Assembly (NCBI GenBank): GCA_027308685.1
Contig: DAIDEE010000004.1
Location: forward strand, 1-35,675
DNA length: 35,675 nucleotides
Source: Acidocella sp.
GTDB lineage: Bacteria; Pseudomonadota; Alphaproteobacteria; Acetobacterales; Acetobacteraceae
Reading direction: 5' to 3'
Below are positions 227 to 33,043 of the stretch, piece by piece (within the stretch, counting starts at the first letter, position 1; the number at the start of each line of letters is the position of its first letter). The position numbers and the translations under genes are program-made. Below the pieces are notes generated by a model, which saw nothing but the letters and a program-made list of their open reading frames with translations, was not told where the DNA came from and made no database searches.

Positions 227-1630
227 TTACCCTTCCATATCGTTGGCGATGCTGGCCAGCACGGTGGGGGATTTAGATTTCAGCACCAGGAACCACACCA
301 GGCCGATGACGAGGTAGCCGATGAAGATTTCCGGCAGGTACTGGTCGGGGGCTGCCGGCCAGGGGATGACGGAGCTATACACCACGAAGAACATCAGGGC
401 GGCACCGATGGCGCTGATGATGACGGTTTTCGCGGTCATCAGGCCGACTTTTTTCATGTCGAATGAAGCGGAGATCGCAACACCCAGATACACCACCACG
501 AAGCCGTAGGTAGCAATGGTGCCGGTTTCGTTAAAGGCGTTGAGGAAGGTTTGCGGCGTAAGTGCCAGGAAGAACACAGTCACGATCGCAACGCTAGTGA
601 ACACCGCCATGTGTGGGGTTTTGTGGACCTTATGAACTAAGCCCATGGAACCATGCAGGAACTGATAGCGGCCCATGGAATACAGCATACGTGAGCTTGC
701 ATTGATGCAGGCAAGTGCGCAGGCAAAGGCGCTGATCATGGCGGAGAAATATACCACTCCGGCAGCCCACGGCATGTGCGCGGCGTTGGTCATGTCAGCA
801 AATGGTGATGATGACCCGCCGATAGCGCCGGCGTTGTCATTCATACCCATGACCATGAAGTAAGAAATAACGGTGAAGAAGGTTCCGGCAACCGCTGCCG
901 AGCCAACCACCGCGATCGGGATATTGCGTTGCGGATTGGAGGATTCCTTGGCCAGCGTCGCGGAACTCTCAAAGCCGACGAAGCTGAACACGGCAAAGGC
1001 CATGGCCGACATGATACCGCCAGCGGGCAGCTTCGCAAAATCAAACTGCGCGGGGTCGTAGATTGTACCGTGCTTGCCTACCACCATGGCGGTGATGATG
1101 ATGATGATGCCGATGGAGATCGTCTCCAGCACCAGCGCCAGGCGCGAGGAAAGCTGAATGTCGCGATACGCGGCGTAGGCAATAAGAGCGATGAAGGCGA
1201 GCGAGAACACCACCTGCTCCGGCAACGAAAGCGTAATGCCAAATACGCCAAGGAAGTTGCCGAGGAAAAGCGGGAAACCAAACACCACGGCCATGGCGGT
1301 GGTGAGATACGCAAGGATCATTGTCCAACCGGCCAACGCGCCGGTCACCGGCCCGAACGTACGGCCAATATAAACAAAGTATGACCCGGCCTCCGGATGG
1401 CGCTTGGCCAGTGAGGAGATGGAAGCACCCACAAACACGCAACCCAATGTGGCGATGAGATATGAAACCCACGAGCCAATGCCAGCAATTCCGGCAACAA
1501 CCGAGATATTCAAAGCAGGCGTCAGGGTTGGCGCGATATTCGCTATCGACTGACCGATCGTCTCCGGCAGAGTCAGAGCGCCGTGGCGTAACTGCCCGGC
1601 ATCTATTTTAGTGTCTGTTACAGCAACCAT
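227..1630 (-). CDS. APC superfamily amino acid/amine permease
   Basis: A 467-residue, highly hydrophobic inner-membrane protein with about 12 apparent membrane segments, the usual size for APC permeases. The N-terminal part (residues ~15-60) has the family pattern GQSIANIAPTLTP followed by a Gly-rich first helix pair and KRHPEAGSYFVYIGRTFG, typical of APC transporters that exchange or import amino acids or amines. A purine-rich stretch (GAGAGGG) precedes the ATG. It lies 106 bp downstream of the copper amine oxidase on the same strand, so import of the oxidase substrate (for example an aromatic or aliphatic amine) is a reasonable inference. The substrate itself cannot be read from the sequence. 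Confidence 0.9.
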   Translation of the reverse strand: MVAVTDTKIDAGQLRHGALTLPETIGQSIANIAPTLTPALNISVVAGIAGIGSWVSYLIATLGCVFVGASISSLAKRHPEAGSYFVYIGRTFGPVTGALAGWTMILAYLTTAMAVVFGFPLFLGNFLGVFGITLSLPEQVVFSLAFIALIAYAAYRDIQLSSRLALVLETISIGIIIIITAMVVGKHGTIYDPAQFDFAKLPAGGIMSAMAFAVFSFVGFESSATLAKESSNPQRNIPIAVVGSAAVAGTFFTVISYFMVMGMNDNAGAIGGSSSPFADMTNAAHMPWAAGVVYFSAMISAFACALACINASSRMLYSMGRYQFLHGSMGLVHKVHKTPHMAVFTSVAIVTVFFLALTPQTFLNAFNETGTIATYGFVVVYLGVAISASFDMKKVGLMTAKTVIISAIGAALMFFVVYSSVIPWPAAPDQYLPEIFIGYLVIGLVWFLVLKSKSPTVLASIANDMEG

Positions 1631-1736
1631 AAATTTTCCCTCTCAATCCTGTTGTCGGCCTCATCAGATCATAACCTGCACCCAGCGTATTATGATCTCA
1701 TTCTAAAACTACGATGCAAGTCCTATGCCGCTTTGG

Positions 1737-13755: not shown

Positions 13756-15359
13756 CAGGTAGGTACCACCTCGCGCGCCAACGAGGTTTCGATCAACGCA
13801 ATGGTGCGCTCGATGCCGTAAAGTGCTATAAACCCGCCAAAGCGCGGCCCTTCGGTTTGCCCCAGCAGCACCTGGTACAAACAATCAAACCAGGCTTTCA
13901 GCGGGGTGAATTTATGCGCCTTGCCGACCGCGTAAACCATATTTTGAATCTGCTCGGCCGCCGTCTCACCCGGATATTCAGCGAACCCGGCCGCCAGCCG
14001 CGCCTTCAAATCTTCCAGGCCGATGCGCTCCAACGGGGTCGCCGCACGGAATTTTTTATTCGGCGCAATGAAGTCGCGGTTATAAGCGATTGCATAGTTG
14101 ATCAGTTGCGAAAGGAACGGATACCTCTGCGCATCCGCATCCGGCAGATACGCCCGGATGAACCCCCACAGCATCTCCGGGCTATCGGCATTGATCACCG
14201 AGGCGAGGTTCAGAAGCATGGTAAAGCCGATGGGCGAGCCTGCATCCACCGGAATATCACCGCCGTGGATATGCCAGGCCGGGTTGGCATGCGGGTCGGC
14301 TGCCTCCCGCGCGCCCTCCACGCCATTGATGTAATCATCGGCGGCGCGGGGGATAACATCAAAGAACAATTTTTTCGCCCGTTGCGGCGCATGGTACATA
14401 AATTGCGCCAATGATTCTGGCGGCGCGTAAGTCAGCCACTGCTCCACCGAAAGCCCGTTGCCCTTGCTCTTGGAAATCTTCTGGCCGTTTTCGTCCAAAA
14501 ACAATTCATAGGTCAGGCATACCGGCGGCTCGGCGCCCAAGGCCCGCACGATGGCGGATGAGAGCTTGACCGAGTCAATCAAATCCTTGCCGGACATTTC
14601 ATAGTCAACATCCAGCGCATACCAGCGCATGGCCCAGTCGGCTTTCCATTGCAGTTTGGCCGAACCGCCGGTCACTTCAGTTTCAAACCGCAGTCCACTA
14701 TCGGGGTCAATCCAGGTTACAGTGCCCGCCGCCACATCGGCATTTTCGATCGGCACCTGCATCACAATGCCGGTGCGCGGATGGATCGGCAAAATCGGCG
14801 AATAAGTGGCACGGCGTTCCGGCCCCAAGGTGGGGCGGATAATGTCGATAATTTTATCGTGGTTGGCCAGCACATGCAAAATGGCGTTATCGAATTTGCC
14901 GCTGAGATAATAATCGCTCGACGAGGCAAACTCATACTCAAAGCCAAAAGAGTCCAAAAACGCCCGCAACCGGGCATTGTTATGTGCGCCAAAACTTGAA
15001 TGAGTCCCGAAGGGGTCCGGCACCTGCGTCAACGGCTTGCCCAGAAACTCCCGCAGCATGTCCTTGCTCGGCACATTATCAGGCACTTTACGCAGCGCAT
15101 CCATATCATCGGAAAACGCCAGCAAACGTGATGGCAGGCCGGTCAGTTCGGTAAACGCACGACGCACCCAACTGGTCCGCGCCACCTCACCAAAGGTGCC
15201 GATATGCGGCAGGCCGGAAGGGCCATAGCCGGTCTCAAACAAGGCGCTGGTTTTACCTTTTTCGCGCAGCCGCTGGGCCACACGCTCAGCCTCACGAAAC
15301 GGCCAGCTAAGTTGATCTTGCGCGGAGGGCACGGCGGGGGATTTTATCTGTTCACTCAT
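13755..15359 (-). CDS. lysK: Lysine--tRNA ligase, class I
   Basis: A 534-residue class I LysRS, which charges tRNA-Lys in the cytosol. The HIGH-like motif PSGLPHIGTF (~residues 47-56) and the KMSKS-like motif KISKSKGNGLS are both present, as is a C-terminal helical anticodon-binding region. Class I LysRS is usual in alphaproteobacteria, where it replaces the class II enzyme. It ends in a 1-bp overlap with the flippase-like gene and starts 50 bp from the divergent helicase start. Confidence 0.95.
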   Translation of the reverse strand: MSEQIKSPAVPSAQDQLSWPFREAERVAQRLREKGKTSALFETGYGPSGLPHIGTFGEVARTSWVRRAFTELTGLPSRLLAFSDDMDALRKVPDNVPSKDMLREFLGKPLTQVPDPFGTHSSFGAHNNARLRAFLDSFGFEYEFASSSDYYLSGKFDNAILHVLANHDKIIDIIRPTLGPERRATYSPILPIHPRTGIVMQVPIENADVAAGTVTWIDPDSGLRFETEVTGGSAKLQWKADWAMRWYALDVDYEMSGKDLIDSVKLSSAIVRALGAEPPVCLTYELFLDENGQKISKSKGNGLSVEQWLTYAPPESLAQFMYHAPQRAKKLFFDVIPRAADDYINGVEGAREAADPHANPAWHIHGGDIPVDAGSPIGFTMLLNLASVINADSPEMLWGFIRAYLPDADAQRYPFLSQLINYAIAYNRDFIAPNKKFRAATPLERIGLEDLKARLAAGFAEYPGETAAEQIQNMVYAVGKAHKFTPLKAWFDCLYQVLLGQTEGPRFGGFIALYGIERTIALIETSLAREVVPT

Positions 15360-15409
15360 AATGGCCTGGGTCTATGGCGAAATTTCCACGCCGTCTATAC
15401 GAAGACCAG

Positions 15410-18148
15410 ATGGATTTCCTGCCCGACCTCCCCGCCATCGTCGCCGGTCACGGCCATGCGGTGCTGTTATCCACCGATGGCGAGCTGGCACACCTCACGC
15501 CGGGGCGGGTTGCCAAGCAACTGGCAGACGCCACGCCCCTGGTGGTGCACGGGCCCGCCACCCTGAAGCGCCTTGGCAACCCAGCCATCGCGGTGCTGGA
15601 TATTCTCGAACTTTTCGCCTTCGTCTGCCCCGCGCAATCGCTCGCCCCCACCGCCGCCGGCCTCGCCCGCTTCCTTGAACTCCCCGTGCCCGCCAACCAG
15701 GAGGACGCCGCCGCCGCACTTGCAGGTTATGCCGAATCGCTCCTGGCAAAACTCAGCCTGGGCCGCGACGTGCCTGCGAACCGTGATGCCCCAGGCCTCG
15801 CCGCCGCCATGGGCCAGGCCGGCTGGGGTTGGGCGCCCTATGTTCTGGCCGCCCTGAATGCCCCGGCCGCGCGCGCCGATGGCATGGCGCTACGCCTTTG
15901 GAAGCGCCTGCCGCGCTGGGAGGCAGAAGCCCCGCGCTCGCCGGCTTCGGCTTTTCCCATTGCACCTGCCCAGGCCCGCGCCCGGCTTGCCACTTTGTTG
16001 GGGGAGACCGCCGAGCAACGCCCCGCCCAGTCTGATTACGCCGCCGCTGCCACCACGGCATTTTTACCCCGCGCCGCCGAGGGCCACCCGCATCTTATCA
16101 TCGCCGAGGCTGGCACAGGCACCGGCAAAACCCTGGGCTACCTCGCACCCGCCAGCTTGTGGGCCGAGGTCAACGCCGGGCCGGTGTGGATTTCCACCTT
16201 CACCCGTCACCTGCAGCGCCAGATCGAATCCGAGGCGGCCCGCCTTGGCCCTCTCGAAGGTGACCGCGTCCGCGTGGTGCTGCGCAAGGGCCGCGAGAAC
16301 TATCTCTGTCTGCTGAATTATCAGGACGCGGTTGAGAGCAAGCGCGGCATCATCCCGCTGGGACTGATCTCCCGCTGGGCCACCGCCAGCTCGGATGGCG
16401 ATTTGATGGGCGGCGATTTGCCCGGCTGGTTTGCCGAGCTTTTCGGCCATATGTTCCTGGCCTCCATCGCCGATAAACGCGGCGAGTGCATCCATGCCGC
16501 TTGCGAGCATTACACCCGCTGCACCATCGAGCATGTGGTGCGTAAAGCCCGCATGGCGGACCTGGTGATCGCCAACCATGCATTGGTGATGGCGCAGGCT
16601 GTGTGGGGCGGGCTGGATGATGAGTATGTGCCATCGCGCTACGTGTTCGATGAAGGCCATCATATTTTCGATGCGGCGGACTCGGCATTCTCCATCGAAC
16701 TCTCGGGCACCGTTATGGCCGAACTGCGCCGCTGGCTGCTAGGCGCCGAGGGAACGCGCTCGCGCGCCAAAGCCTTGGCGCAACGCTTCGAGGATTTAAC
16801 GGCGGTTGAAGAATCTCTGATCCGCCATCTCGATGCTGCCTTGCTGGCTGCCAAAGCGCTGCCCGCCCCCGGCTGGAGTGCCCGGCTGGCCGCTGATCTC
16901 GCCGGGCTAGAGCACACCGGCGCCAACCCCTCCGAATTATGCCTGCAATCATTGCGCCTGCAGGCGCGCGCCCGGGCGCAGGATGCCGAATTGACCGGGC
17001 CCATGCCGGTTGAGGTTGAGTTATTCCCCATCGAGGATGAAATCATTGAATCCGGTGCCAAGCTGGCCCGCGCGTTGGAAAAACTGCGCACCCCCCTGGC
17101 GGCTTTGCGCGAACGCTTCCTCGACCGGCTGGAAACCGAAGCCGAAACTCTTGATGAACCCACCCGCCTGCGGCTGGAAGGTGCGGCCCGCTCGCTCAAA
17201 CGGCGCGCTATCGACCCGCTGGTGGCCTGGAAGCGCATACTGGAGTCGCTCCCCACTTCGGCACCAACCCCAGGGGTGCGCCCGGATAAAATCCATTTCC
17301 TGCGCCTGGAGCGCGAGCAAGGCCAGGACCGCGATATCGCCTTGCTGACCCACCTGCTGGACCCCACGGAAGCCTTCATTGAGACCATCGCCGCCCCGGC
17401 GCACGGTATGCTTATCACCAGCGCCACGTTGCGCGACGGGGTGGATAACGAAACCGCCTGGGCACGCGCCGAAGCCCGCACCGGCGCCAACCATCTGGCC
17501 ACCCCCGCCATCCGCGCGGTGTTTGACTCGCCGTTCGACTACGCCGCCAACACCCGCATCTTCATCGTCAATGATGTGAACACCCAGGACATGGGCAGCC
17601 TCGCCGGCGCCTTTCGCGCCTGTTTTGAGGCGGGCGGCGGCGGCGGCCTCGGGCTGTTCACCGCCATTTCGCGCCTGCGCGCAGTACACGCCAAAATCGC
17701 CGCCCCGCTGGAAGCTGCCGGTATCGCGCTATATGCCCAGCATGTTGACGCGATGGATAATGCCACCTTGGTGGATATTTTCCGCGCCGAGGAACACTCC
17801 TGCCTGCTTGGCACCGATGCGATGCGCGACGGCGTGGACATTCCCGGCCGTGCGCTCCGGCTGGTGGTATTCGAGCGCACCCCCTGGCCGCGCCCGGATA
17901 TTCTGCACAAGGCCCGCCGGGCCCATCTCTCGAATGGCACGCCGAAAGATTATGACGACGCCATCGTGCGCCTGCGCCTGCGGCAAGCTTTTGGCCGTCT
18001 GATCCGCCGCGCCGATGACCGTGGGGTGTTTGTTCTGCTAGACCGGCAAGCCCCCGCCCGCCTGTTCACCGCCTTCCCGCCCGGCGCTCCCATCATCCGC
18101 GCCGGGCTGGCCGACACCGCCCTGGCGATCAAGGATTTCCTCGGCTGA
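15410..18148 (+). CDS. DinG/XPD-type ATP-dependent Fe-S DNA helicase
   Basis: A superfamily 2 helicase of 912 residues from the preferred ATG at 15410 (GAAGA upstream); an in-frame ATG at 15374 would add 12. Numbered from 15374, the Walker A is AGTGTGKT (246-253) and the Walker B is DEGH (426-429). The four [4Fe-4S] cysteines are C312, C372, C377 and C383, whose C-x4-C-x5-C end matches E. coli DinG. Motif III/VI regions (SATLRDG; R-x-x-QAFGRLIRR) follow. The first ~220 residues have an ILELFAFVCP-type block that may be a degenerate exonuclease-like domain. It unwinds 5' overhang DNA or R-loops by family; exact role open. Confidence 0.9.
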   Translation: MDFLPDLPAIVAGHGHAVLLSTDGELAHLTPGRVAKQLADATPLVVHGPATLKRLGNPAIAVLDILELFAFVCPAQSLAPTAAGLARFLELPVPANQEDAAAALAGYAESLLAKLSLGRDVPANRDAPGLAAAMGQAGWGWAPYVLAALNAPAARADGMALRLWKRLPRWEAEAPRSPASAFPIAPAQARARLATLLGETAEQRPAQSDYAAAATTAFLPRAAEGHPHLIIAEAGTGTGKTLGYLAPASLWAEVNAGPVWISTFTRHLQRQIESEAARLGPLEGDRVRVVLRKGRENYLCLLNYQDAVESKRGIIPLGLISRWATASSDGDLMGGDLPGWFAELFGHMFLASIADKRGECIHAACEHYTRCTIEHVVRKARMADLVIANHALVMAQAVWGGLDDEYVPSRYVFDEGHHIFDAADSAFSIELSGTVMAELRRWLLGAEGTRSRAKALAQRFEDLTAVEESLIRHLDAALLAAKALPAPGWSARLAADLAGLEHTGANPSELCLQSLRLQARARAQDAELTGPMPVEVELFPIEDEIIESGAKLARALEKLRTPLAALRERFLDRLETEAETLDEPTRLRLEGAARSLKRRAIDPLVAWKRILESLPTSAPTPGVRPDKIHFLRLEREQGQDRDIALLTHLLDPTEAFIETIAAPAHGMLITSATLRDGVDNETAWARAEARTGANHLATPAIRAVFDSPFDYAANTRIFIVNDVNTQDMGSLAGAFRACFEAGGGGGLGLFTAISRLRAVHAKIAAPLEAAGIALYAQHVDAMDNATLVDIFRAEEHSCLLGTDAMRDGVDIPGRALRLVVFERTPWPRPDILHKARRAHLSNGTPKDYDDAIVRLRLRQAFGRLIRRADDRGVFVLLDRQAPARLFTAFPPGAPIIRAGLADTALAIKDFLG

Positions 18149-20736: not shown

Positions 20737-22653
20737 TTAAAACCCGTACCCCACCACACGCTCATTGCTCTGCAGCAGCCCCTTGTACCGGCTCAGCGCC
20801 AGCAGCGGGAAGAACCGTGGGTAGCCATGGTATTTTAAGTAAAACACCCGCGGGAACCCCACCGCGTTATACGGTGCTTCGGTCCAACTGCCGTCGGCGT
20901 CTTGGGCTGTTTGCAAATACGCGACACCACGCGCTACCGCCGGATGCTCCACCTGCCCCGCTGCCATTAACCCCAGCACCGCCCAGGCAGTTTGCGAAGG
21001 CAGGCTTTGCGCGGCGTAGCCATGGAATTCACCCGCCGGCGCGGCGCCGTAGCTTTCGCAATCCTCACCCCAACCGCCATCGTCGCGCTGCTTGTTCACC
21101 AGCCAGCCCACCGCGCGTTTTACCATCACATCATCGGCCGAAACCCCGGCGGCATTCAGCGCGCACAGCACCGACCAGGTGCCGTAAATATAATTCGTCC
21201 CCCAGCGGCCAAACCATGAACCATCCGGCATCTGGGTTTCGCGCAGATACGCCACCCCGCGTGAAATCGCAGATTTATCCTCAACATTCCCCAACTGCGC
21301 CAAAAACGAAATACACCGCGCCGTCACATCCTCGGTCGGTGGGTCCAGCAGCGCGCCATGGTCGGCAAACGGAATATGGTTGAGGTACTGGCGGTCGTTG
21401 TTGATATCAAACGCGCCCCAAGCCCCGTTGGTGGATTGCATGCCGAGAATCCATTCCCGCGCTCGCGAAATCGATTCCGCATATTTCGCATCGCCGGCGC
21501 GATGCAGCAGCATGCCCACCACCGCGGTATCATCCACATCCGGGTAATGCGGATTGTTGTATTGGAAGGCCCAGCCGCCGGGGCGCGTGCCAGGCGTGTT
21601 GGTTGCCCAGTCGCCCACCACATCGAGCACCTGCCGCGCCACCAGCCAGTCGCACGCCGCCCCAATCGGCGCCCCCGCTTCCGCCAGCGCGTGGCCCGCC
21701 AACCCGGTATCCCACACTGGTGAGAGACAAGGCTGGCAATAAGCGCGGTCGTCCTTCACGACCAGCAGTTTGCGCACCGCCTCCCAGGCGATGGCGAAAT
21801 CCGGGTGCTCGGGTGCATACCCCAGCATGTCGTACATCATCACCGTATTCGCCATGGCCGGATAAATCGCGCCCAGCCCATCATCGCCATTCAAACGCTC
21901 CTTGATAAATGCTTTGGCTTTCTCAATCGCCTGGGCACGCGAGGAGGCCGGAAAAAATCGCTCGACCCGCCGCAACACTACATCAAGATATTTGAAAAAA
22001 TGCCCCCAGGGGGATTTATACGGCCCGCGAATCCAGTCCGTCACCCGGTCCGGCGGCACCACAAATAATTCATCAATCCGCACTTGTCGCGGATTACGCG
22101 CCAGCGGCTTGTTGGCCATCAGCACCAGCAGCGGCGTCATCACGGTGCGCGACCAGTAGGATACTTTACGCATGGTGATGGGAAACCAATCCGGCATCAA
22201 AACCAGTTCCACCGGCATCACCGGGCAGGCTTCCCACGGCACCGCGCCAAACAAAGCCAACTGGATGCGGGTAAACACATTAGTCCGCGCCGCCCCGCCA
22301 TGCGCCAAAATCACCTCACGCGCCTTCAACATATGCGGCGCATTTACATCATCGCCAATACATTTGAGTGCAAAATACGCCTTCACACTCGCCGACATAT
22401 CAAACTTGCCGCCATGAAATAGCGGCCAGCCGCCTTGGTTGGTTTCGTAATCCCCCTGAATGCCTCGGAGATAAACGCCAATTTTATTCTCCAACTCTGG
22501 GTCGATCCGGTCGAGATAATGTTCCAGCAGCACATATTCCGCCGGAATAGTGGCATCCGCTTCCAGCTCATAAACAAAATGCCCGTCGGGCCGCTGCTCA
22601 CCCTGCAAGGCCCTGCATGCCCGCGCAACGGCAGTGTCGAGAATCGTATTCAT
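20737..22653 (-). CDS. shc: Squalene-hopene cyclase
   Basis: Membrane-associated cyclase that turns squalene into hopene and hopanol. The 638 residues match the family. The catalytic DVDD motif (372-375) matches the DXDD of A. acidocaldarius SHC. QW-type repeats recur (for example DGSWFGRWG, DDGGWGEDCESY, DADGSWTEAPYNAVGFPRVFYLKYHGYP at the C-terminus). It is the last gene of the hopanoid run; its ATG overlaps the hpnE stop by 4 bp. Also called hpnF. Confidence 0.97.
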   Translation of the reverse strand: MNTILDTAVARACRALQGEQRPDGHFVYELEADATIPAEYVLLEHYLDRIDPELENKIGVYLRGIQGDYETNQGGWPLFHGGKFDMSASVKAYFALKCIGDDVNAPHMLKAREVILAHGGAARTNVFTRIQLALFGAVPWEACPVMPVELVLMPDWFPITMRKVSYWSRTVMTPLLVLMANKPLARNPRQVRIDELFVVPPDRVTDWIRGPYKSPWGHFFKYLDVVLRRVERFFPASSRAQAIEKAKAFIKERLNGDDGLGAIYPAMANTVMMYDMLGYAPEHPDFAIAWEAVRKLLVVKDDRAYCQPCLSPVWDTGLAGHALAEAGAPIGAACDWLVARQVLDVVGDWATNTPGTRPGGWAFQYNNPHYPDVDDTAVVGMLLHRAGDAKYAESISRAREWILGMQSTNGAWGAFDINNDRQYLNHIPFADHGALLDPPTEDVTARCISFLAQLGNVEDKSAISRGVAYLRETQMPDGSWFGRWGTNYIYGTWSVLCALNAAGVSADDVMVKRAVGWLVNKQRDDGGWGEDCESYGAAPAGEFHGYAAQSLPSQTAWAVLGLMAAGQVEHPAVARGVAYLQTAQDADGSWTEAPYNAVGFPRVFYLKYHGYPRFFPLLALSRYKGLLQSNERVVGYGF

Positions 22654-23837
22654 AATGGATTTTGCTCTAACATTGCCAAGGCGGCGGCATTACCAGAGCG
22701 TATCGCCCCCTCGATGGTGGCCGGCAACCCGGTATCGGTCCAGTCACCGGCCAGCATGATATTTTTGTCCACCGTGCGCGTGGCGGGTCGTAATTTCAAC
22801 TGCGCGGGCGTGGCCGCAAACGTCGCGCGTTTTTCTCGTACCACCCGGTGCTCTGGCATCGCACCCAGTCCAAAGGCCGCTTGCAAATCCGCCCACACCA
22901 GCGCTGCCAGAGTGGCATTATCCATCTCGGCATATTTATTTGCCGCTGAAACAGTCACCGATAATATCTCACCCTTGGCAAACGCCCATTCCGCCACGCC
23001 GCCGACCAAGCCCCAAAAACCAGTCTCACCAGGGTCAATCCGGCATTTGAAATGCAGATTCAAAATAGCCTGATGCTCACTGGGCACAACCAATCCCGGC
23101 AGTAACTCCACCGCCACCCAGGGCGGCACCGCCAGAATGGTTTTTTCACCCGCCACCAGCGCATTCACCCGCCTGCCCAGCCGCACCTCAGCGCCTCGTG
23201 CAACAAGCCATGCCAGTGCAGGGTCAATGAAACTCTCCGACAATCCCACCTTGGGAAACCGTGGGATGGACGCCGCCCCACCGCGCTCGATGGTTTCCGC
23301 TACCACCGCCCGCAAAGGCGCCGCCGATGCCGCATCAGGTGGTGTGTTCAGCGCGGCAATCGCCAATGGTTCAAGCAAATTTCGGTATAATTCCCCGGTG
23401 CCGGCCAGCAACGGCGCCACCAGATCATCCACCCCTGCCCGGCGCAATTTCAACAATGCCAGATAATCACGAGCCCTTGTTCCCGGCACCCGGCGCGCGG
23501 CGGAGACCACCCACCACGGCAAACGCCCGCGATTCAGCCGCAGCTTCCAATGCGCCTTGGTTTTCAAATCAACAAACGCAAACACCGGCTCCACCGGCCC
23601 ACTTAAGCTGTCATGCGCCCCGATGCGATTCAAAAATCCCATCACCGCATGATTACCCGACAGCAACAAATGATTGCCATTATCAATCCGGCAATTCAGC
23701 GCGGGGTCAAAATATGATCGGCAGCGCCCACCAGCCGCCGGAGCCGCCTCATGCAGCACCACCTCGGCGCCGCGCTCCACCAACGTGCACGCCGCCGCCA
23801 AACCCGCCACACCAGCCCCAATAACGCTAACCTTCAT
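22650..23837 (-). CDS. hpnE: Hydroxysqualene dehydroxylase HpnE
   Basis: A 395-residue FAD-dependent oxidoreductase that reduces hydroxysqualene to squalene, the last step of the HpnCDE route. The N-terminal dinucleotide motif is GAGVAGLAAACTLVERGAEVVLHEA, followed by GGRCRSYFD. The C-terminal FAD segment is NIMLAGDWTDTGLPATIEGAIRSGNAAA. It overlaps hpnD and shc by 4 bp each (ATGA). Confidence 0.94.
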   Translation of the reverse strand: MKVSVIGAGVAGLAAACTLVERGAEVVLHEAAPAAGGRCRSYFDPALNCRIDNGNHLLLSGNHAVMGFLNRIGAHDSLSGPVEPVFAFVDLKTKAHWKLRLNRGRLPWWVVSAARRVPGTRARDYLALLKLRRAGVDDLVAPLLAGTGELYRNLLEPLAIAALNTPPDAASAAPLRAVVAETIERGGAASIPRFPKVGLSESFIDPALAWLVARGAEVRLGRRVNALVAGEKTILAVPPWVAVELLPGLVVPSEHQAILNLHFKCRIDPGETGFWGLVGGVAEWAFAKGEILSVTVSAANKYAEMDNATLAALVWADLQAAFGLGAMPEHRVVREKRATFAATPAQLKLRPATRTVDKNIMLAGDWTDTGLPATIEGAIRSGNAAALAMLEQNPL

Positions 23838-24688
23838 GGCAAATAAATCTGTGCCGCCAGCATCATCTTACGCCATTTTGGCAGTGAAACTCTGCCCTTT
23901 TTATAATCATATCCACGATGATGCAGCGCCATCAGCAGCGGCTTATAGCTGGCCAGCATAATGCGCGCCGGCTTCATGGCCTTCTGGTCACAATGCGCCA
24001 TCGAGGTCTCAGCTTCTTTGTAATAGCGCATCGCCAGCTTAGCGACGCGCAGGCACACGAAAGGCAGCCGGGGCGACACCACCGCCGCCTCCGGATTGGT
24101 CGCCACATTTTCCTGCCGCAAATATTCATACGGCAAATATAGCCGCCCACGCTTGGCGTCTTCAGGAACATCGCGCAAAATATTGGTCAGTTGCAAGGCC
24201 CGGCCCAACGCGTAAGCGGTATCCTCAGCAGAGGTACTATCATCGCCAAACACCCGCACCGAAAGCCTGCCCACTGCCGAGGCCACGCGGTCGCAATATA
24301 AATCCAAAATCGGCAGTGGCGGGGCCACAATCGGCGCACCGGCGTCCATCTCCATGCCATCAATGATCGCAATAAAGTCAGCCTCGCGCAGCCGGTATTG
24401 CAGCACTGCCACCCGCAAAATACGCGTTAGTGCATTATTGGTCCGCCCGGCAAAAATACCCGCAATAATCTGCCGCCAACCACGCAGCAATTTACGTTTT
24501 TCCGCCAAGGGGGCATCTTCATCGGCCACGTCATCCACCAAGCGGCAAAATGTATAAATAGCATACATCGCGGCCCGCCGGTCCGGTGGCAGCACTTTCA
24601 TCCCATAATAAAACGAGGTGGCGGCGCTACGCACAACCGAAGTCACCGCTTCGATATCGGCTTTATTAAGGGAAGGTATTAGCTCCAT
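23834..24688 (-). CDS. hpnD: Presqualene diphosphate synthase HpnD
   Basis: A 284-residue trans-isoprenyl diphosphate synthase that joins two farnesyl diphosphates into presqualene diphosphate. The two Asp-rich Mg-binding motifs are present: DDVADED (52-58) and RDVPEDAKRGRLYLP (Asp173, Asp177). It is 10 bp overlapped with hpnC and 4 bp with hpnE. Confidence 0.94.
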   Translation of the reverse strand: MELIPSLNKADIEAVTSVVRSAATSFYYGMKVLPPDRRAAMYAIYTFCRLVDDVADEDAPLAEKRKLLRGWRQIIAGIFAGRTNNALTRILRVAVLQYRLREADFIAIIDGMEMDAGAPIVAPPLPILDLYCDRVASAVGRLSVRVFGDDSTSAEDTAYALGRALQLTNILRDVPEDAKRGRLYLPYEYLRQENVATNPEAAVVSPRLPFVCLRVAKLAMRYYKEAETSMAHCDQKAMKPARIMLASYKPLLMALHHRGYDYKKGRVSLPKWRKMMLAAQIYLP

Positions 24689-25557
24689 AGTAACCTCGGG
24701 CTTGCCAGCAACGCCGCGGCTGCAAAGTCTGTCGAATTTAATTTTACCCGCATCGCCAATGCATCATGCGCCTGCAGTTTTGCTGTTAAACGATGTGCCA
24801 AATTCACGATCACCGCTATCTCTACCCGCAACCGTCTGGCCTTCACCAAGCCTGGCAACGCCGCCCCCGCTGTATTCAACGTCTTTGTCTCCACCAGCAT
24901 TTCATCAAACACCGCCCGCAATCCTGGCGTCGATGTTTCGCGGGCGATATCGTCGGTGGCGGCGCCATGCTTGGCCAGCCAATCCTGCGGCACGTAGCAA
25001 CGGTCCATGTTGCGTAAATCGGGCGCCACATCCTGTAGATGATTATTTACCTGCAAAGCCGCGCATAAAGCGTCTGAAGCCGGCCAGGTTTCGCGGCTCT
25101 CGCCATGCAAATCCAACATATACCGCCCCACGGGTGCCGCCGAGTAGCGGCAATAATCCATCAACTCGGCCCAACTCTCATAACGGTTTTTGCGGGCGTC
25201 CTGGCGGAACGCCACCAGCAGTTCACGCGCATGAATCGCCGAAACACCGCTTTCCTGCAATGATGTTCGTAATACCAAGGCACTCGGCGCAGCCTGATCG
25301 CGGGCACCGGTTAGCACCGCCTCCATCATATCCAGCCGCGCAACTTTGTCATCCGCGCTCAAGCCAGGATGGTCGGCAATGTCGTCAGCATGCCGGGCAA
25401 AATTATAAAATGCGTGCACATGCTTGCGTAAACCGGCGCGGATCAGCCAGGAGCCAACCGGAAAATTCTCATCGCCCTTGCCCTTGCCCGAGGCGATTTC
25501 AACGTTGCCATCCGGCGCCGGCGCTGCACGTGCCAGTTCGTTATCATTCGCGGTCAT
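24679..25557 (-). CDS. hpnC: Hydroxysqualene synthase HpnC
   Basis: A 292-residue homologue of HpnD that converts presqualene diphosphate to hydroxysqualene. Asp-rich motifs are DDIAD (58-62) and QDVAPD (Asp176, Asp180), followed by RCYVPQDWL. The N-terminal ~28 residues are Lys/Gly-rich and probably disordered. Overlaps hpnB by 4 bp and hpnD by 10 bp. Confidence 0.93.
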   Translation of the reverse strand: MTANDNELARAAPAPDGNVEIASGKGKGDENFPVGSWLIRAGLRKHVHAFYNFARHADDIADHPGLSADDKVARLDMMEAVLTGARDQAAPSALVLRTSLQESGVSAIHARELLVAFRQDARKNRYESWAELMDYCRYSAAPVGRYMLDLHGESRETWPASDALCAALQVNNHLQDVAPDLRNMDRCYVPQDWLAKHGAATDDIARETSTPGLRAVFDEMLVETKTLNTAGAALPGLVKARRLRVEIAVIVNLAHRLTAKLQAHDALAMRVKLNSTDFAAAALLASPRLLWS

Positions 25558-26651
25558 AAATCAGTCCCATAATCGCGATTCTTCCAACGCGCCCCCGTAC
25601 CGCGCCAATAATCCAGCGCCGAACTTAAAGTTGCCACCATGTAAAACAGCGCAATGACGGGTAGCGTCAAGGCCCATAAACGGTTCTGCCCATACCGATT
25701 CAACGTTGGCAGGTAGCTCACCCCCGCCAGAGCACAGGCCATCAGCCCGAACATGAAATTCCATCCATGCCCCAACAGCACTGCCAAGGCAGGCACCAGC
25801 CATACCAAGGCGAGCCCCAGCAAAGTTCCGGCCAACAGCCAGGCGGAATAGCGCAACTGCGTAAAGGCGGTGCGGCTAACCATGCTGAAAATGTCATTAA
25901 ATTTTGGATAGGGCCGGATCGAGGCTGCCAACCCCGCGTGACCCAGATAAATCGGCCCGCCCTGCTTCACCGCCTTCGCCAGCGCCACATCGTCGATCAA
26001 GGCCGATTTTATGGCGTTGATCCCGCCAATCCGCTGCAACGCCTCACGCCGGATCAGCACGGTACCGCCCGCCGCTGCTGCCGTAGTGCTCAACGGGTCG
26101 TTCACCTTCGCGAACGGGTAGAGCATCTGGAAAAAATACACGAAGGCCGGTATCAGCGCTCGTTCGGCCAAGCTCTGGCAATTCAGCCGCACCATCTCGG
26201 AAACCATATCCACGCGCGGGTTGGTCAACCGCGCCACCAACGATGACAAATGCCTGGGGTCATGCACAATATCCGCATCGGCAAACAGCAGCACCGGCGC
26301 GGTTGAATGCTCAATCCCTTGGGCGAGCGCCCATAATTTGCCCGACCATCCGGCGGGCTTTTCCGCTGCCGTGATCACCGTCAATTTCGCATCCGAGCCC
26401 GCAAGTGCTGCCGTGCCGTCCGTGGAGTGATCATCCACCAAAATCACCCGAAACGCCCCAGCATAGTCCTGCGCCAGCAGCGAGGCAATTACCGGCCCGA
26501 TCGTTTCGGCCTCATCGCGGGCCGGCACAATCACATCCACCGCCGGTAACTCAGCCGGCAAAGCGGGCGGCAACTCCGGCAGCGATTCCCAAAACCGGCC
26601 ATGCCCGAACACCAGATAAACCCAAACGCACAGCGCCAAAAACGCAATCAT
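25554..26651 (-). CDS. hpnB: Hopanoid-associated glycosyltransferase HpnB
   Basis: A 365-residue GT2-type glycosyltransferase with an N-terminal membrane anchor (~1-15), a catalytic domain (VDVIVPARDEAETI, LVDDHSTDGT, LFADADIVHDPRHL), and three or more C-terminal hydrophobic segments. HpnB is conserved in hopanoid loci, where a role in sugar transfer to the hopanoid side chain or a lipid partner is proposed but not settled. Overlaps hpnA by 4 bp. Confidence 0.92.
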   Translation of the reverse strand: MIAFLALCVWVYLVFGHGRFWESLPELPPALPAELPAVDVIVPARDEAETIGPVIASLLAQDYAGAFRVILVDDHSTDGTAALAGSDAKLTVITAAEKPAGWSGKLWALAQGIEHSTAPVLLFADADIVHDPRHLSSLVARLTNPRVDMVSEMVRLNCQSLAERALIPAFVYFFQMLYPFAKVNDPLSTTAAAAGGTVLIRREALQRIGGINAIKSALIDDVALAKAVKQGGPIYLGHAGLAASIRPYPKFNDIFSMVSRTAFTQLRYSAWLLAGTLLGLALVWLVPALAVLLGHGWNFMFGLMACALAGVSYLPTLNRYGQNRLWALTLPVIALFYMVATLSSALDYWRGTGARWKNRDYGTDL

Positions 26652-27646
26652 GCCAGCATCCCTTGCGCGCCAAACCAGGCCAGCGCGTCCGCCACCGCCG
26701 CCACTGCCGGGCGCGGCGCGTAGCCCAATTCACGTATCGCCTTGGCGGAGGAGAAAAACATCCGCTTGCGCGCCATCTGTAAAATCTCCGGGGTCATCAG
26801 CGGGGTTTTACCAGTTATCCCGGCAATCCGCTCCATCACCCAGGCCACTGGCATCAACGGCGTAATCGGCAATGCCAGGGTCGGCGGCTTACGCCCAGTC
26901 TGGGCGGCAATCAGTGCGAGTAAGTCGCGCAACATCAAATCCTCACCACCCAGAATATAGCCCTCGCCAGATTTACCGCGCGTCAAAGCCAGCACATGCC
27001 CGGCCGCCACGTCATCAACATGCACCACATTCAGCCCGGTATTCACATAGGCCGGCATTTTACCGCGCGCGGCGTCCAGCACCATCTGGCCGGTGGGGGT
27101 AGGCTTCACATCGCCCGGCCCGACCGGGGTGGAGGGATTCACGATCACGATGTTTTGCCCAGCCGCCGCCAGCGCCCGCACCGCCTGTTCGGCGTCGTAT
27201 TTGCTGCGCTTATAGGCGCCGATCAGGTTGGCCGGGTCCACCGGCGTTGTCTCATCAGCAACCGCACCGTGCGTGCCCAGCCCCAATGCTGCCACCGAGC
27301 TGGTATAAACCACCCGCTCGACCCCCGCCGCCTGCGCCGCCTGCAGCAACGCCACGCTGCCATCGATGTTCACCTTGCGCATATATTCAGGGTCCGGCAC
27401 CCACAGCCGGTAGTCCGCCGCCACATGCAGCACATAGCGGCAGCCCTGCACCGCCGGGACCAAAGTTTCCGGCTGCGCCAGATCCGCTGTCACGATCTCC
27501 GCCGCTAGCCCGGCCAGATTCTGCCTGTCACTCCCAGCCCGCGCCGTCAGCCGGAGTTGGTACCCCGCCTGCGCCAACGCCCGCGCCACGGCCGCGCCAA
27601 CAAAGCCGGTGGCCCCGGTGACCAAACAAATATCAGATGAGGCCAA
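26648..27646 (-). CDS. hpnA: Hopanoid-associated sugar epimerase HpnA
   Basis: A 332-residue extended SDR with VTGATGFVGAAVARAL at the N-terminus, the catalytic YTSSVAALG..YKRSKYDAE (YxxxK), and NPSTPVGPGD. It is the first gene of the hopanoid operon. The start is a TTG at 27646 with GGAG 8 nt upstream, and no in-frame ATG nearby. Sugar epimerase activity is assigned by family; the substrate is unknown. Confidence 0.93.
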   Translation of the reverse strand: MASSDICLVTGATGFVGAAVARALAQAGYQLRLTARAGSDRQNLAGLAAEIVTADLAQPETLVPAVQGCRYVLHVAADYRLWVPDPEYMRKVNIDGSVALLQAAQAAGVERVVYTSSVAALGLGTHGAVADETTPVDPANLIGAYKRSKYDAEQAVRALAAAGQNIVIVNPSTPVGPGDVKPTPTGQMVLDAARGKMPAYVNTGLNVVHVDDVAAGHVLALTRGKSGEGYILGGEDLMLRDLLALIAAQTGRKPPTLALPITPLMPVAWVMERIAGITGKTPLMTPEILQMARKRMFFSSAKAIRELGYAPRPAVAAVADALAWFGAQGMLA

Positions 27647-27767
27647 GCCAAACTCCGCAGTTCACAGCAACATTTGCCCCCTTATATATCGAAGCGGGGC
27701 CACTGGGTGTAGAACCCATTGCAGGCTCAGGTGCAACACGCGCAGGCAGGGGGTATAAAAATTTCTC
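27647..27767. promoter_or_regulatory. Divergent promoter region, hpnA / di-iron protein
   Basis: A 121-bp gap serving both directions. On the plus strand TATAAA (27754-27759) ends 8 nt before the ATG at 27768, so a transcript from it would start at or next to the ATG (leaderless), as no Shine-Dalgarno is at usual spacing. No convincing -35 was found. On the minus strand an AT-rich TATATA segment (27683-27688) is a possible -10 for hpnA. Confidence 0.45.
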
Positions 27768-28670
27768 ATGGACGACATCATCGCTACCGCTGACTTCAAC
27801 GCGCGGCACTGGAATTTCCCGCAAACCGGCACCATCCGCCCCGGCGATGAGCAGCACTACGCCATGCTCACCCAACTGCTGATCGCGACCTACAACCCCT
27901 ACAAGCCCGCCGTGCTGAACTGGCCGAAACTGGCGCCCGAAGCGCTGGCCCGCATCACCTCGCTCCCTATTTGGGACATTGCGGTGCAGACCGAGATCAA
28001 GGCCAGCATGAGAATCGAGGCATTCGCCGCCACCATCCGCGACCCCGCTTTGAAAGCCGCCCTTCTGCATATGGCGTCCGAGGAAGCCCGCCATAAGGAT
28101 GTGCTCTCCCGGTTGGTGGCCGCCTACGACATTCCGCTCAAGCCCGATGGGACCTACCACCCCCCGCGCGATGCCGAATGGGCCTTTATGGTTACGGGCT
28201 ACAGTGAATGTGTGGACAGCTTCTTCGCCTACGGGCTGTTCGAAATGGCGCGGCGCTCCGGCTATTTCCCGCCCGAACTGGTGGAAACCTTCGAGCCGGT
28301 GGTGCAAGAGGAAGGCCGCCATATATTGTTCTTCACCAACTGGATCGCCTGGCATAAAGTCAAAATGCCGCTCTGGCGGCGGCCGTATTTCGCCCTCAAA
28401 ACCGCCGCCGTCTGGGCGTTTTTAGTGTATGAGCGTCTCGGCATGGCCAAGGATGTCGACGGCTTGGCCGACGGCGACGCCAATTTCACCGTCAATGGCT
28501 CAAAAGCTCTGGCTGACGAGATGGACCCCGCCACCCTCATCGATATTTGCCTTGAGGAGGATAAAAAGCGCATGTCCGGCTATGACCCACGTTTGCTCCG
28601 CCCTACCACCATGCCCCGTCTGGCCCGCTTCGCCCGCCGCTTTATCAGTCCTAAAAAACGCCCTGCCTGA
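27768..28670 (+). CDS. Ferritin-like di-iron protein next to hopanoid genes
   Basis: A 300-residue helical protein with the full di-iron carboxylate ligand set at ferritin-like spacing: Glu76, Glu106-x-x-His109 (SEEARH), Glu147 and Glu182-x-x-His185 (QEEGRH). This suggests an O2-activating oxygenase, hydroxylase or desaturase rather than iron storage, since it lacks ferritin features and is twice as long. The C-terminal ~100 residues are less clear; one hydrophobic segment (~207-222) could touch the membrane. It is divergent from hpnA and directly upstream of the HpnL-type gene (13 bp). The substrate is unknown; a hopanoid or isoprenoid lipid is inferred from context. Confidence 0.85.
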   Translation: MDDIIATADFNARHWNFPQTGTIRPGDEQHYAMLTQLLIATYNPYKPAVLNWPKLAPEALARITSLPIWDIAVQTEIKASMRIEAFAATIRDPALKAALLHMASEEARHKDVLSRLVAAYDIPLKPDGTYHPPRDAEWAFMVTGYSECVDSFFAYGLFEMARRSGYFPPELVETFEPVVQEEGRHILFFTNWIAWHKVKMPLWRRPYFALKTAAVWAFLVYERLGMAKDVDGLADGDANFTVNGSKALADEMDPATLIDICLEEDKKRMSGYDPRLLRPTTMPRLARFARRFISPKKRPA

Positions 28671-28683
28671 GTTGGTTATTTAA

Positions 28684-29685
28684 TTGAAACAATCTGCCCG
28701 CCTGGTCCCGGCCATCTTTGCGTTGGCCGGTCTCGCCATTGTCACCGGTCTGGTGATTTATTTTGGTGCCGGCGACGTGTTGCGCGCCCTCACCTCGGTA
28801 AAACCATCCGGCTTTGCGGCCTATATCGGTGCCCAACTCGGGATCACGCTGGGGCTGGCATTATGCTGGCGTATGTTGCTGCGCAGCCGCAACCGCGGCA
28901 GCTTTCCGCTCCTGGTATGGGGGCGGCTGGTACGTGATGCCACCGGCGAATTCCTGCCCTTCAGCCAGGTCGGCGGCTTTCTGCTGGGCGCCCGGGTCAT
29001 TACTTTGGCGGGCGTCACGGTGCCGGACGCCATCGCCTCCACCATCGGCGATGTCACCACCGAGTTCCTGGCCGAGTTGGTATTTATCGGCGTCGGCCTG
29101 CTGGTGCTCGCCCACCTTGCCCCTTCCAGCGACTTGCTGGTGCCGGTGGCCATTGGGCTATGTGTCGCCGTGGTGATGGCGGTCGGGCTGATTTTGGTAC
29201 AGCGCGGCGGCGGCGGTAAAATATTCCGTGCCATCGCCGAGCGCTTGGCAGGCGCCTCCGGTGAGGGTGCGATGATGCACATGGACCGGCTGCAGCAATC
29301 GCTGGACAACATCTACACCCGCCATGACCGCCTGGCCTGGTCAGCGTTCTTTCATTTAATCTGCTGGTTCGGCACCGCCACCGCCTCGTTTGTGGGCTTT
29401 CACGCGCTTGGTGTACCTTTATCATTCACCGATGCCATCGCTATTGAATCCATGCTGCATGCCATTATGGCACTGGCCTTCTTTGTGCCCGGCCGGGTCG
29501 GCATCCAGGAGGGCGCCTACACGCTGCTGGCGGGAATATTCGGTGTTCCGCCCGATATCGCGCTGTCACTTTCGCTCCTGCGGCGGGCGCGCGACTTCGT
29601 CATTGCCGTGCCGGTGCTGCTGGCCTGGCAGATGGTGGAGGCCAAACGCCTGCATAAAACCGGCGCACCCGATCTGAATTTGTAA
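28684..29685 (+). CDS. hpnL: HpnL-type flippase-like membrane protein
   Basis: A 333-residue polytopic protein of the PF03706 family, close to the hopanoid-associated HpnL subgroup: EFLPFSQVGGFLLGARV in the middle and FVPGRVGIQEGAYTLLAG near the C-terminus. The TTG at 28684 is the only workable start, because a TAA codon stands directly before it and the next Met is residue ~64. It is 13 bp after the di-iron gene and probably co-expressed. A role in moving hopanoids between membranes is proposed for the family. Confidence 0.88.
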   Translation: MKQSARLVPAIFALAGLAIVTGLVIYFGAGDVLRALTSVKPSGFAAYIGAQLGITLGLALCWRMLLRSRNRGSFPLLVWGRLVRDATGEFLPFSQVGGFLLGARVITLAGVTVPDAIASTIGDVTTEFLAELVFIGVGLLVLAHLAPSSDLLVPVAIGLCVAVVMAVGLILVQRGGGGKIFRAIAERLAGASGEGAMMHMDRLQQSLDNIYTRHDRLAWSAFFHLICWFGTATASFVGFHALGVPLSFTDAIAIESMLHAIMALAFFVPGRVGIQEGAYTLLAGIFGVPPDIALSLSLLRRARDFVIAVPVLLAWQMVEAKRLHKTGAPDLNL

Positions 29686-30133: not shown

Positions 30134-31063
30134 ATGCCCTATGTCAGCATCATCACACCCTGCTACAATGAGGCTCTGAATGTTGAGGAACTGCACGCCC
30201 GGGTGGCTGGCGCCATGCGTAACATGCCCGGCTTCACCTACGAGCATATTTTCATCGACAACGCCTCCACCGACAATACCGCCGCCGTGCTCAAGCGTAT
30301 TGCCGCTACCGACAAAAATGTGAAGCTCATCGTCAACGCCCGCAACTTCGGCCATATCCGCTCGCCGATGCACGCCCTGCTCACCGCCAAAGGTGAAGCC
30401 GTCATCAGCATCGTCGCCGATTTGCAAGACCCGCCCGAGATGATCCCCGCGATGATCGAAAAATGGCAGGAAGGCTATTCGATGGTGGTGTGCACCAAGC
30501 GCTCCTCGGAAGAAGACCCGATGATGTTCTGGCTGCGCAGAGCCTATTACGCGCTGGTGGAAAAACTCTCCTCCATCACCACCATCCAAAATTTTACCGG
30601 CTTTGGCCTGTATGACCGCAAAGTGGTGGAGGCGGTGCGCGCCTTCGACGACCCCTACCCGTATTTTCGCGGCATGGTGGCCGAAATCGGGCTGCCGATG
30701 TATTTTATGCCCTACGACCAGCCGGCGCGCCGACGCGGCATCACCAGCAATAATTTCTATGCGCTATACGACATGGCGATGCTGGGCATCATCAACCTCT
30801 CAAAAGTGCCGTTGCGATTGGTGACAGCGCTCGGCTTCATCACCGCCTGCCTCTCACTGCTCTCCGGTCTCGGCTATCTCACCTACAAGCTGATTTTCTG
30901 GAGTCAATTTAACACCGGCATCGCCCCCTTGGTCATCGGGTTATTCTTCCTGGGCTCAGTACAACTGGTCTCACTGGGCATCATCGGCGAATATGTCGGC
31001 GCGATCCATACGCATGTGCAGAAACGGCCATATGTGGTTGAGAAGGAGCGGGTGGGGTTTTGA
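30134..31063 (+). CDS. GT2 glycosyltransferase, DPM1/GtrB-like
   Basis: A 309-residue membrane-anchored GT2 enzyme that likely loads a sugar onto undecaprenyl phosphate. N-terminal GT-A domain: SIITPCYNEALNVEEL, IDNASTDNT, and the DXD-like IVADLQDPPEM. Two C-terminal membrane helices (~230-262, ~268-290) end in the GEYVGAIHTHVQKRP signature of the GtrB/ArnC group. The membrane GT at 31745 could use its lipid-linked product. The ribosome site is weak. Confidence 0.92.
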   Translation: MPYVSIITPCYNEALNVEELHARVAGAMRNMPGFTYEHIFIDNASTDNTAAVLKRIAATDKNVKLIVNARNFGHIRSPMHALLTAKGEAVISIVADLQDPPEMIPAMIEKWQEGYSMVVCTKRSSEEDPMMFWLRRAYYALVEKLSSITTIQNFTGFGLYDRKVVEAVRAFDDPYPYFRGMVAEIGLPMYFMPYDQPARRRGITSNNFYALYDMAMLGIINLSKVPLRLVTALGFITACLSLLSGLGYLTYKLIFWSQFNTGIAPLVIGLFFLGSVQLVSLGIIGEYVGAIHTHVQKRPYVVEKERVGF

Positions 31064-31580: not shown

Positions 31581-31744
31581 ATGTTCCTCGTACTATTTTA
31601 TATCGAATGGATTCTACATCCTATCATTCATGAATCCCAGGCAATTCTCTGTCGGCGCAATAAAACTATCACTCAATATATTTTCTAACCATGCGCTCCG
31701 GTTAAGTGTTTGAATTATCGAAGGACTCCTGGCATCATTCAAGC

Positions 31745-33043
31745 ATGACCTCTTGCTTACGTAAGTTCATATATCGTTTCACCCCCAGCTTCACCCTGGC
31801 CCTAGGGTTTGCCGCGCTTACCTTACTACATCACGCCAACCTGGAACTTTACCACCAGGCCCTGCAATGGACTGACCATTCCGCTCTATACACCCCGTTC
31901 GTTGACATGCAGGCCATCTTGCAGGCGGAAGCCTGCTGGCAGCAGGGCGTCAATGTTTATACGCCCAACGCCTGCATGGGCGGTGGGTTTTTTAACTATT
32001 CGCCAGTTTTACTCAGGCTTGCGCACTGGCCCATCGGCCCCACCAACACCGATGCGGTGGCCATCGTCACCGACCTGTTCTGCATAGCCAGCCTGGCAAT
32101 TCTGCCGGCGACCAAAACCGCTCAAGGTTTCTGGCTGCGTCTGGCCGTGATCGCCTCCCCGGCTACCTTGTACGCGCTGGAACGCGCCAATCTCGACGCC
32201 ACAATTTTTACCCTTTGCCTGCTGGCCGGCTGGTTTCTGGGCCGCAGCCTGATATTGCGGATATTAGGCTACGGGCTGATCCTGCTGGCGGCACTGGCAA
32301 AATTTTATCCAGCATTTGCGCTCCTCAGCGTTGTCCGCGAACGCAGAGCCTTATTCTTCGGCTTGGCAACCGGTTGCACCGGCCTCCTGCTTCTGGGGTT
32401 GCTGGTGTTCAAGGGCCAGACTGCCGCCGCACTTGCCATCATCCCGCAAGGCTGGCCATTTGGCACGCTGTTCGGCTCGGTCAACATTCCCTACGGCATC
32501 CGCTTGCTGCGCGCTCCCGGCAATTTTTTCGGCGGAATGCACCTGTTCCGGTACAATTTCACCGGGTTCGACATTTTGGTATTCGCCTTGTTGCGTCTTA
32601 TCGCTCTGCTGGTGTTTATCACCTCCCTCCCGCTTTACCGCGGTAATCTGCCACCGCTGCGCAACCACGCTATGACCTTGTTTGTTATCGGAGCGGCGAT
32701 TCTGGTGGGCTGCTTTTTCACCGCGCAAAGTGCCAACTACCGCGAGATTTTTTTCATCCTCACGGTGCCGGGCCTGTTGCTGATCGCCCGTAGCGGCGAG
32801 GCTGCCAGACGGCGCGTCATGCTGCTCATCGCCGGGGTTATATTTACCGTTTGGCAACCGTTTCTGCACGGCGTTCTGTTTGCAGCACTCGGCCTGTTCG
32901 CCAACGCTAATGCCCTGGGGTTTCCGCAATTCGTCTTCTGGCTGTGCCGCGAAGTGCTGTTTTGGTGGGTCATGATCCAGTTCGCTGCAATCATCACCGC
33001 CAGCAGCCTGGCCGAGTTGCAGCTTCTACCCGTCAGGCGATAA
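31745..33043 (+). CDS. GT87-like polytopic glycosyltransferase
   Basis: A 432-residue integral membrane protein with 10 or more hydrophobic segments and features of the GT87 (DUF2029) mannosyltransferase-type family: a first loop after TM1, YTPN..GFFNYSPVLLRL, ERANLDATIF, and AKFYPAFALL. Such enzymes use polyprenyl-phosphate sugars to build glycans on the periplasmic side. The GTG at 31706 is an alternative start; the ATG at 31745 puts the basic KFIYRF segment before TM1. Neither has a strong ribosome site. Confidence 0.75.
   Translation: MTSCLRKFIYRFTPSFTLALGFAALTLLHHANLELYHQALQWTDHSALYTPFVDMQAILQAEACWQQGVNVYTPNACMGGGFFNYSPVLLRLAHWPIGPTNTDAVAIVTDLFCIASLAILPATKTAQGFWLRLAVIASPATLYALERANLDATIFTLCLLAGWFLGRSLILRILGYGLILLAALAKFYPAFALLSVVRERRALFFGLATGCTGLLLLGLLVFKGQTAAALAIIPQGWPFGTLFGSVNIPYGIRLLRAPGNFFGGMHLFRYNFTGFDILVFALLRLIALLVFITSLPLYRGNLPPLRNHAMTLFVIGAAILVGCFFTAQSANYREIFFILTVPGLLLIARSGEAARRRVMLLIAGVIFTVWQPFLHGVLFAALGLFANANALGFPQFVFWLCREVLFWWVMIQFAAIITASSLAELQLLPVRR

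Follow-up and report, generated by a model that had tools for sequence, protein, structure and literature searches.

Hopanoids are sterol-like membrane lipids of bacteria whose unsaturated forms were recognized decades ago and serve as markers. In the stretch of DNA analyzed here (35,675 nucleotides, hereafter the window), a 300-residue protein, A, with a candidate di-iron site is encoded back to back with a hopanoid biosynthesis operon. This arrangement raises the question of whether A acts in the hopanoid pathway and, if so, which reaction it catalyzes.

Candidate gene A and its locus

Table 1. Features of the hopanoid locus around candidate gene A, in window coordinates
Feature	Position	Strand	Evidence
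SHC (HpnF), squalene-hopene cyclase	20737..22653	-	TIGR01507, 719.9 bits
HpnE, hydroxysqualene dehydroxylase	22650..23837	-	TIGR03467, 373.6 bits
HpnD, presqualene diphosphate synthase	23834..24688	-	TIGR03465, 294.9 bits
HpnC, squalene synthase subunit	24679..25557	-	TIGR03464, 290.5 bits
HpnB, hopene-associated glycosyltransferase	25554..26651	-	TIGR03469, 470.7 bits
HpnA, hopanoid-associated sugar epimerase	26648..27646	-	TIGR03466, 476.8 bits
Intergenic region between the divergent genes hpnA (TTG start) and A; 121 bp from one annotated start to the other	27647..27767	.	
A, candidate di-iron hopanoid oxidase, 300 aa	27768..28670	+	ORF, ATG start, ligand alignments, structure model
HpnL, LPG_synthase_TM-type integral membrane protein, TTG start	28684..29685	+	TIGR03476, 258.9 bits versus cut-off 195.65; PF03706

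As a sequence-only reading of the locus had described, A is divergent from hpnA-B-C-D-E-shc, and HpnL starts 13 bp past its stop codon. The coordinates bear this out, as do the NCBIfam scores, which for HpnA, HpnB, HpnC, HpnD, HpnE, and SHC all lie above the respective cut-offs. A and HpnL are probably co-transcribed; no sigma-70-type promoter match was found in the scanned stretch of the A/hpnA intergenic region. The window genome holds a single copy of A, and its HpnH gene lies on a different contig (G000:C16). HpnP, HpnR, the radical SAM protein HpnH, HpnG, HpnO, and HpnI-K are, like A, encoded in or near hpn clusters; none of them is known to be a ferritin-like di-iron protein. Elsewhere in the window, a 445-residue ORF (31706-33043, + strand) between a GT2 glycosyltransferase (30134-31063) and another ORF matches nothing in Pfam (E up to 1) or NCBIfam.

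The ligand set of A (E76, E106xxH109, E147, E182xxH185), which the earlier reading had called complete and placed at the right positions, is identical in every row of four alignments that have some rows in common: A1 (20 rows), A2 (15), A3 (25 chosen rows), and A4 (57 rows, made up of P0001 and 56 of 80 named loci). Because the set is kept even in paralogs with ~30% identity to the window protein, which A2 and A3 take in, it is not a product of chance. A confident AlphaFold model (pLDDT 83.1, pTM 0.85) predicts a ferritin-like four-helix bundle, with long helices at residues 68-87, 93-119, 136-164, and 169-199 that carry, in this order, E76, E106/H109, E147, and E182/H185. The earlier reading had said that a model lacking a di-iron site would count against it; in the model obtained, the predicted ligands sit on all four core helices. 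By hydropathy, no transmembrane helix is predicted (best 19-residue mean, 1.02).

The sole curated family whose cut-off A exceeds is Pfam Rubrerythrin (PF02915; 25.3 versus 22.8 bits, residues 71-145 only), a model that 14 of 25 A-family members reach at E 0.1. A falls short of the cut-offs for COQ7 (PF03232; 14.1 versus 23.5 bits) and AurF (PF11583; 12.3 versus 29.6 bits), has no Pfam match to FA_hydroxylase/sterol desaturase (PF04116) at E up to 1, comes near the cut-off of no NCBIfam model, and gave no significant match in a PDB sequence search. Naming the family through curated libraries was dropped, given only the partial Rubrerythrin match and nothing from NCBIfam or the PDB. The A3 profile produced a weak, sub-threshold match to the MiaE-like structure 5ux1 (E 0.031), the best of the MiaE type. 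MiaE, AurF, and COQ7 are di-iron helical-bundle hydroxylases or N-oxygenases; their similarity to A is weak and in every case below significance or the curated cut-off, and their structures are not named among the fold matches listed, which excludes nothing.

With the A model as query, no Foldseek match passed 1e-3. The best structural matches were R2/R2lox oxidases, at scores that unrelated helical bundles also attain. R2lox binds a fatty acid. In sequence searches, neither R2lox nor RNR R2 has a family-level match to A, and one of 25 A-family members reached E 0.041 against an R2lox model; the context of A is hopanoid rather than nucleotide metabolism. Stearoyl-ACP desaturase (1oq9) stood at rank 40 of the Foldseek matches (E 0.045, TMq 0.35). 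Acyl-ACP desaturases are, as we propose for A, soluble ferritin-like di-iron enzymes that desaturate a lipid, but A has no sequence match to them (E up to 1), and its proposed substrate is a polycyclic triterpenoid instead of an acyl-ACP. A represents a real, conserved protein family without a name, within a fold class that is already known. As far as our searches show, the family and the reaction proposed below are new within the scope of the literature searched.

Association of the A family with hopanoid genes

Co-occurrence with SHC or HpnH was scored in a class sample, in the window's family, and in a Sphingomonadaceae-like family. The class sample (385 genomes) has the A family in 27 genomes and SHC in 107 (102 above cut-off); 25 of the 27 A-family positives have SHC (Fisher p 2.8e-13, with genomes treated as independent though they are kin). 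Both SHC-less positives (G365 and G185, the latter 74% complete) have HpnH at a contig edge, so the assemblies may have missed their SHC. In the window's family, sampled at one genome per genus, 31 of 60 genomes have an A homolog and 52 have SHC, which is present in 30 of the 31 positives (p 0.02); the exception, G039, has HpnH. All 28 positives tested have HpnH, the three SHC-less genomes included, which points to extended rather than C30 hopanoids. In the Sphingomonadaceae-like family (149 genomes, weakly identified), A occurs in 3 genomes and HpnH in 16, with all 3 among the 16 (p 0.001). The A family is patchy within the window's own family. In the class sample it covers 14 family-level groups, and of the 14 positive genomes in a phylum sample (398 genomes), 4 lie outside the class. 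Homologs found mostly in genomes without shc would have weakened the sequence-only reading; the counts above run the other way, and the A family very probably has a role in the hopanoid pathway.

Gene neighborhoods link A to hopanoid genes in several lineages. Within the window's family, the window arrangement is repeated in L031 and L040, A lies in one stretch with HpnL, hpnA, hpnB, and shc in L036, and paralog B adjoins HpnL in L063. For the class positives outside that family, neighborhoods cover 20 of 22 genomes (G066 and G242 are out, as is the second copy in G427). All four genomes of family f5, which belong to one genus, have the A family in one run with HpnL, HpnA-B-C-D-E, and SHC, and B is also in the run in two of them. 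A and B flank the hpn operon in G124, and A and HpnL adjoin hpnA-E-shc in G639. Among the named loci, which are the best 80 of 480 relatives, 16 have HpnL no more than 400 bp away from A, as called by tblastn at ~30% identity and not by a curated model. These A-HpnL loci come from Dyella, Nevskia, and Azomonas and from uncultured Rhodanobacteraceae, Nevskiaceae, Pseudomonadaceae, and Gammaproteobacteria. In Cupriavidus (L222-L225, and L226 from Cupriavidus metallidurans CH34), A is followed directly by HpnB and HpnA on the other strand, so the genes found most often with A in the different lineages are hpnA, hpnB, and hpnL.

Such linkage is far from universal. In stretches of unequal length, another hpn gene is present in 4 of 33 same-family stretches (some of which end at contig ends), in 5 of the 20 from the rest of the class, and in 27 of 80 named loci; the remaining 29, 15, and 53 stretches, among them Burkholderia and Paraburkholderia loci, contain none. 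Most homologs therefore lie apart from hpn genes, a result that the earlier reading had named as adverse, while linkage is conserved in several lineages. The strong link to hopanoids consists of co-occurrence together with this lineage-specific linkage. In acetic acid bacteria, an A-B pair lies between clpP and recA, with hom, an aminotransferase gene, and similar genes as further recurrent neighbors. Given these neighbors (hom encodes homoserine dehydrogenase), a functional reading of that region was dropped. Two loci are unusual in their assembly. In the 1.9-Mb genome G029 (L061), A and its neighboring ORFs occur twice with the same spacing, ~13.5 kb apart (520-3663 and 14026-17169), and the two A copies have equal match scores, which suggests a duplicated segment or else an assembly artifact. 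A metagenomic contig titled Mycobacteriaceae bacterium (L208) carries hpnA, hpnB, A, hpnD, and shc that are closest to proteobacterial genes and is probably mis-binned.

Proposed hopanoid ring desaturation and alternative reactions

A 2025 survey of Alphaproteobacteria (PMC12583986; 54 species) places hopanoid double bonds at delta-6, less often at delta-11, or at both, and describes the desaturating genes as unknown. Unsaturated forms make up 49-82% of the hopanoids in seven acetic acid bacteria, with 56% for Kozakia baliensis, and reach 43% in Afipia broomeae (0% pentol) and 37% in Skermanella aerolata (PMC12583986). The same source gives 4% for Hypericibacter and 0% for Muricoccus and Rhodopila, which belong to the family of the acetic acid bacteria. 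It counts Rhodopila, Azospirillum, and Nitrospirillum among the saturated producers, reporting 44% pentol and 0% unsaturation for Nitrospirillum amazonense and 90% pentol and 0% unsaturation for Sphingomonas mali. Among eight Sphingomonadales producers in its Table 3, six have pentols, and the highest unsaturation is 1%, in one of them. Outside the Alphaproteobacteria, PMC8560942 putatively annotates bacteriohop-6-ene cyclitol ethers in Burkholderia cenocepacia, with the bond itself not placed, and cites delta-6 in B. cepacia. The literature searched, a scope that excludes preprints and most subscription papers, names no proven hopanoid desaturase gene.

The presence of A can be set against these phenotypes in a few cases. 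Genome G022 is Kozakia baliensis, as its contig C3 matches NZ_CP014676.1 at 100% identity across 15 kb; it encodes A and B as a tandem pair. In the SHC tree, A is present in all 16 rows, representing 16 genera, of the clade that contains G022 (support 100/96), a clade interpreted here as the acetic acid bacteria; it is present in 18 of 18 rows once the window and G023 are added (support 93/94) and in 12 of 34 outside that clade. B. cenocepacia also has A (L190, H9). The species-level match thus comprises Kozakia baliensis and B. cenocepacia, both of which fit. With A in just 3 of its 16 HpnH-positive genomes, the Sphingomonadaceae-like family is in line with the Sphingomonadales of Table 3, in which unsaturation is nearly absent.

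The sequence-only suggestion of a possible new oxygenase, hydroxylase, or desaturase acting on hopanoids or their precursors is supported by the SHC/HpnH co-occurrence; the metal, the oxidase activity, the hopanoid substrate, the desaturation, and the positional specificity are what we infer for A. On balance, we favor A as a hopanoid ring desaturase acting on extended hopanoids. It would most likely introduce the delta-6 double bond, given that A is carried by Kozakia, by the genera of its SHC clade, and by B. cenocepacia, for which 6-ene hopanoids are putatively annotated; for B, the rarer delta-11 bond is our guess. That the family comprises the first hopanoid ring desaturases, A for delta-6 and B for delta-11, working with HpnL across Alpha- and Gammaproteobacteria including Burkholderiales, is put forward tentatively. 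A would be a soluble or peripheral, O2-using, ferritin-like di-iron oxidase receiving electrons from a ferredoxin or flavoprotein. The proposed mechanism is modeled on other ferritin-like di-iron oxidases: the reduced Fe2 center would bind O2, a ring CH2 would give up a hydrogen to a high-valent or peroxo di-iron species, and loss of a second hydrogen would yield the alkene and water. HpnL may be the membrane partner that presents the substrate to A.

The main rival to a desaturase is a di-iron enzyme that hydroxylates the side chain at C-31 and/or C-30, converting bacteriohopanetetrol to bacteriohopanepentol and -hexol. Di-iron proteins of this fold do hydroxylate, and the genes for pentol and hexol formation are likewise unknown, with no candidate found around hpn clusters according to PMC12583986. 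The same survey reports pentols and unsaturation alike in acetic acid bacteria and Skermanella, and 21% pentol plus hexol with 3% unsaturation in Acidocella, to which the organism behind the window may be related. Because the acetic acid bacteria make pentols too, they do not separate the two reactions. The Sphingomonadales favor desaturation: pentols are frequent in this order, unsaturation does not exceed 1%, and A is scarce in the HpnH-positive genomes, although the species compared differ and the genome family is weakly identified. We regard side-chain hydroxylation as unlikely. Slightly less probable is that A oxidizes hopanoids or C30 precursors in some other way, such as a squalene, diploptene, or adenosylhopane oxygenase with a product not yet described would. 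Co-occurrence and linkage point to the pathway and not to a reaction, and hpnA, hpnB, and hpnL also lack an established function (PMC12583986), but the HpnH content of all positives tested favors extended over C30 hopanoids, and ring unsaturation and additional hydroxyl groups are the known oxidative modifications of the carriers that await an enzyme.

Two further explanations were weighed. A PF04116 protein could be the hopanoid desaturase while A does something else; PMC12583986 and PMC6460317 both propose such a protein for this reaction. The window genome encodes two of them, and the proposed product is the same as that of A. PF04116 proteins are integral membrane His-box proteins (PMC6460317), whereas A has a carboxylate-rich ligand set and no predicted transmembrane helix. 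Of the 60 same-family genomes, 59 encode PF04116 proteins, among them genomes that lack SHC, so these proteins do not track hopanoids at the family level, although a specific subfamily might. PMC12583986 itself notes that the match to phenotype is not one to one and that the gene lies outside the hpn cluster. We consider this division of labor rather unlikely. Very improbable, in our assessment, is a rubrerythrin- or ferritin-like peroxide or iron protein that merely travels with hopanoid genes. Rubrerythrin is the one Pfam model passing its cut-off, and A lies among unrelated housekeeping genes in acetic acid bacteria, but the match is partial (A has 300 residues, the Pfam model 137 positions), and neither restriction to hopanoid producers across 14 family-level groups nor persistent HpnL adjacency in other-class lineages would be expected of a stress protein.

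If A and B are desaturases, their genes would provide a genomic marker for makers of unsaturated hopanoids and a handle on what the double bonds do in membranes; unsaturated hopanoids rise with cold in one methanotroph, according to PMC6460317. The orphan HpnL would gain a possible role. Desaturation of a polycyclic ring would be new chemistry for ferritin-like di-iron proteins. For the desaturation of polycyclic terpenoid lipids, it would add a third route, distinct from those of the membrane His-box and the P450 sterol desaturases.

Paralog B and further family members

B is ~30% identical to A and occurs in 12 of the 60 same-family genomes, adjoining A in 10 and lying elsewhere in 2 (G001 and G039). 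In an A/B tree of 58 rows, from which the mis-framed row L098_G198B was disregarded, B forms its own group and is also found outside the window's family. Searching the plasmid records of Burkholderia cenocepacia with B returned no place besides that of A. Methylovulum is a delta-11-only methanotroph.

In the small order that includes G412, A-family genes occur in 28 of 43 genomes, often as two or three copies, and several genomes (G944, G940, G939, G967) have at least three members, sometimes three in a row, which suggests further paralogs with other specificities. One family of this order (f145, 4 genomes) has no A homolog in any genome; were it Hypericibacter, which is a guess, it would be a mild exception whose 4% unsaturation would require another enzyme.
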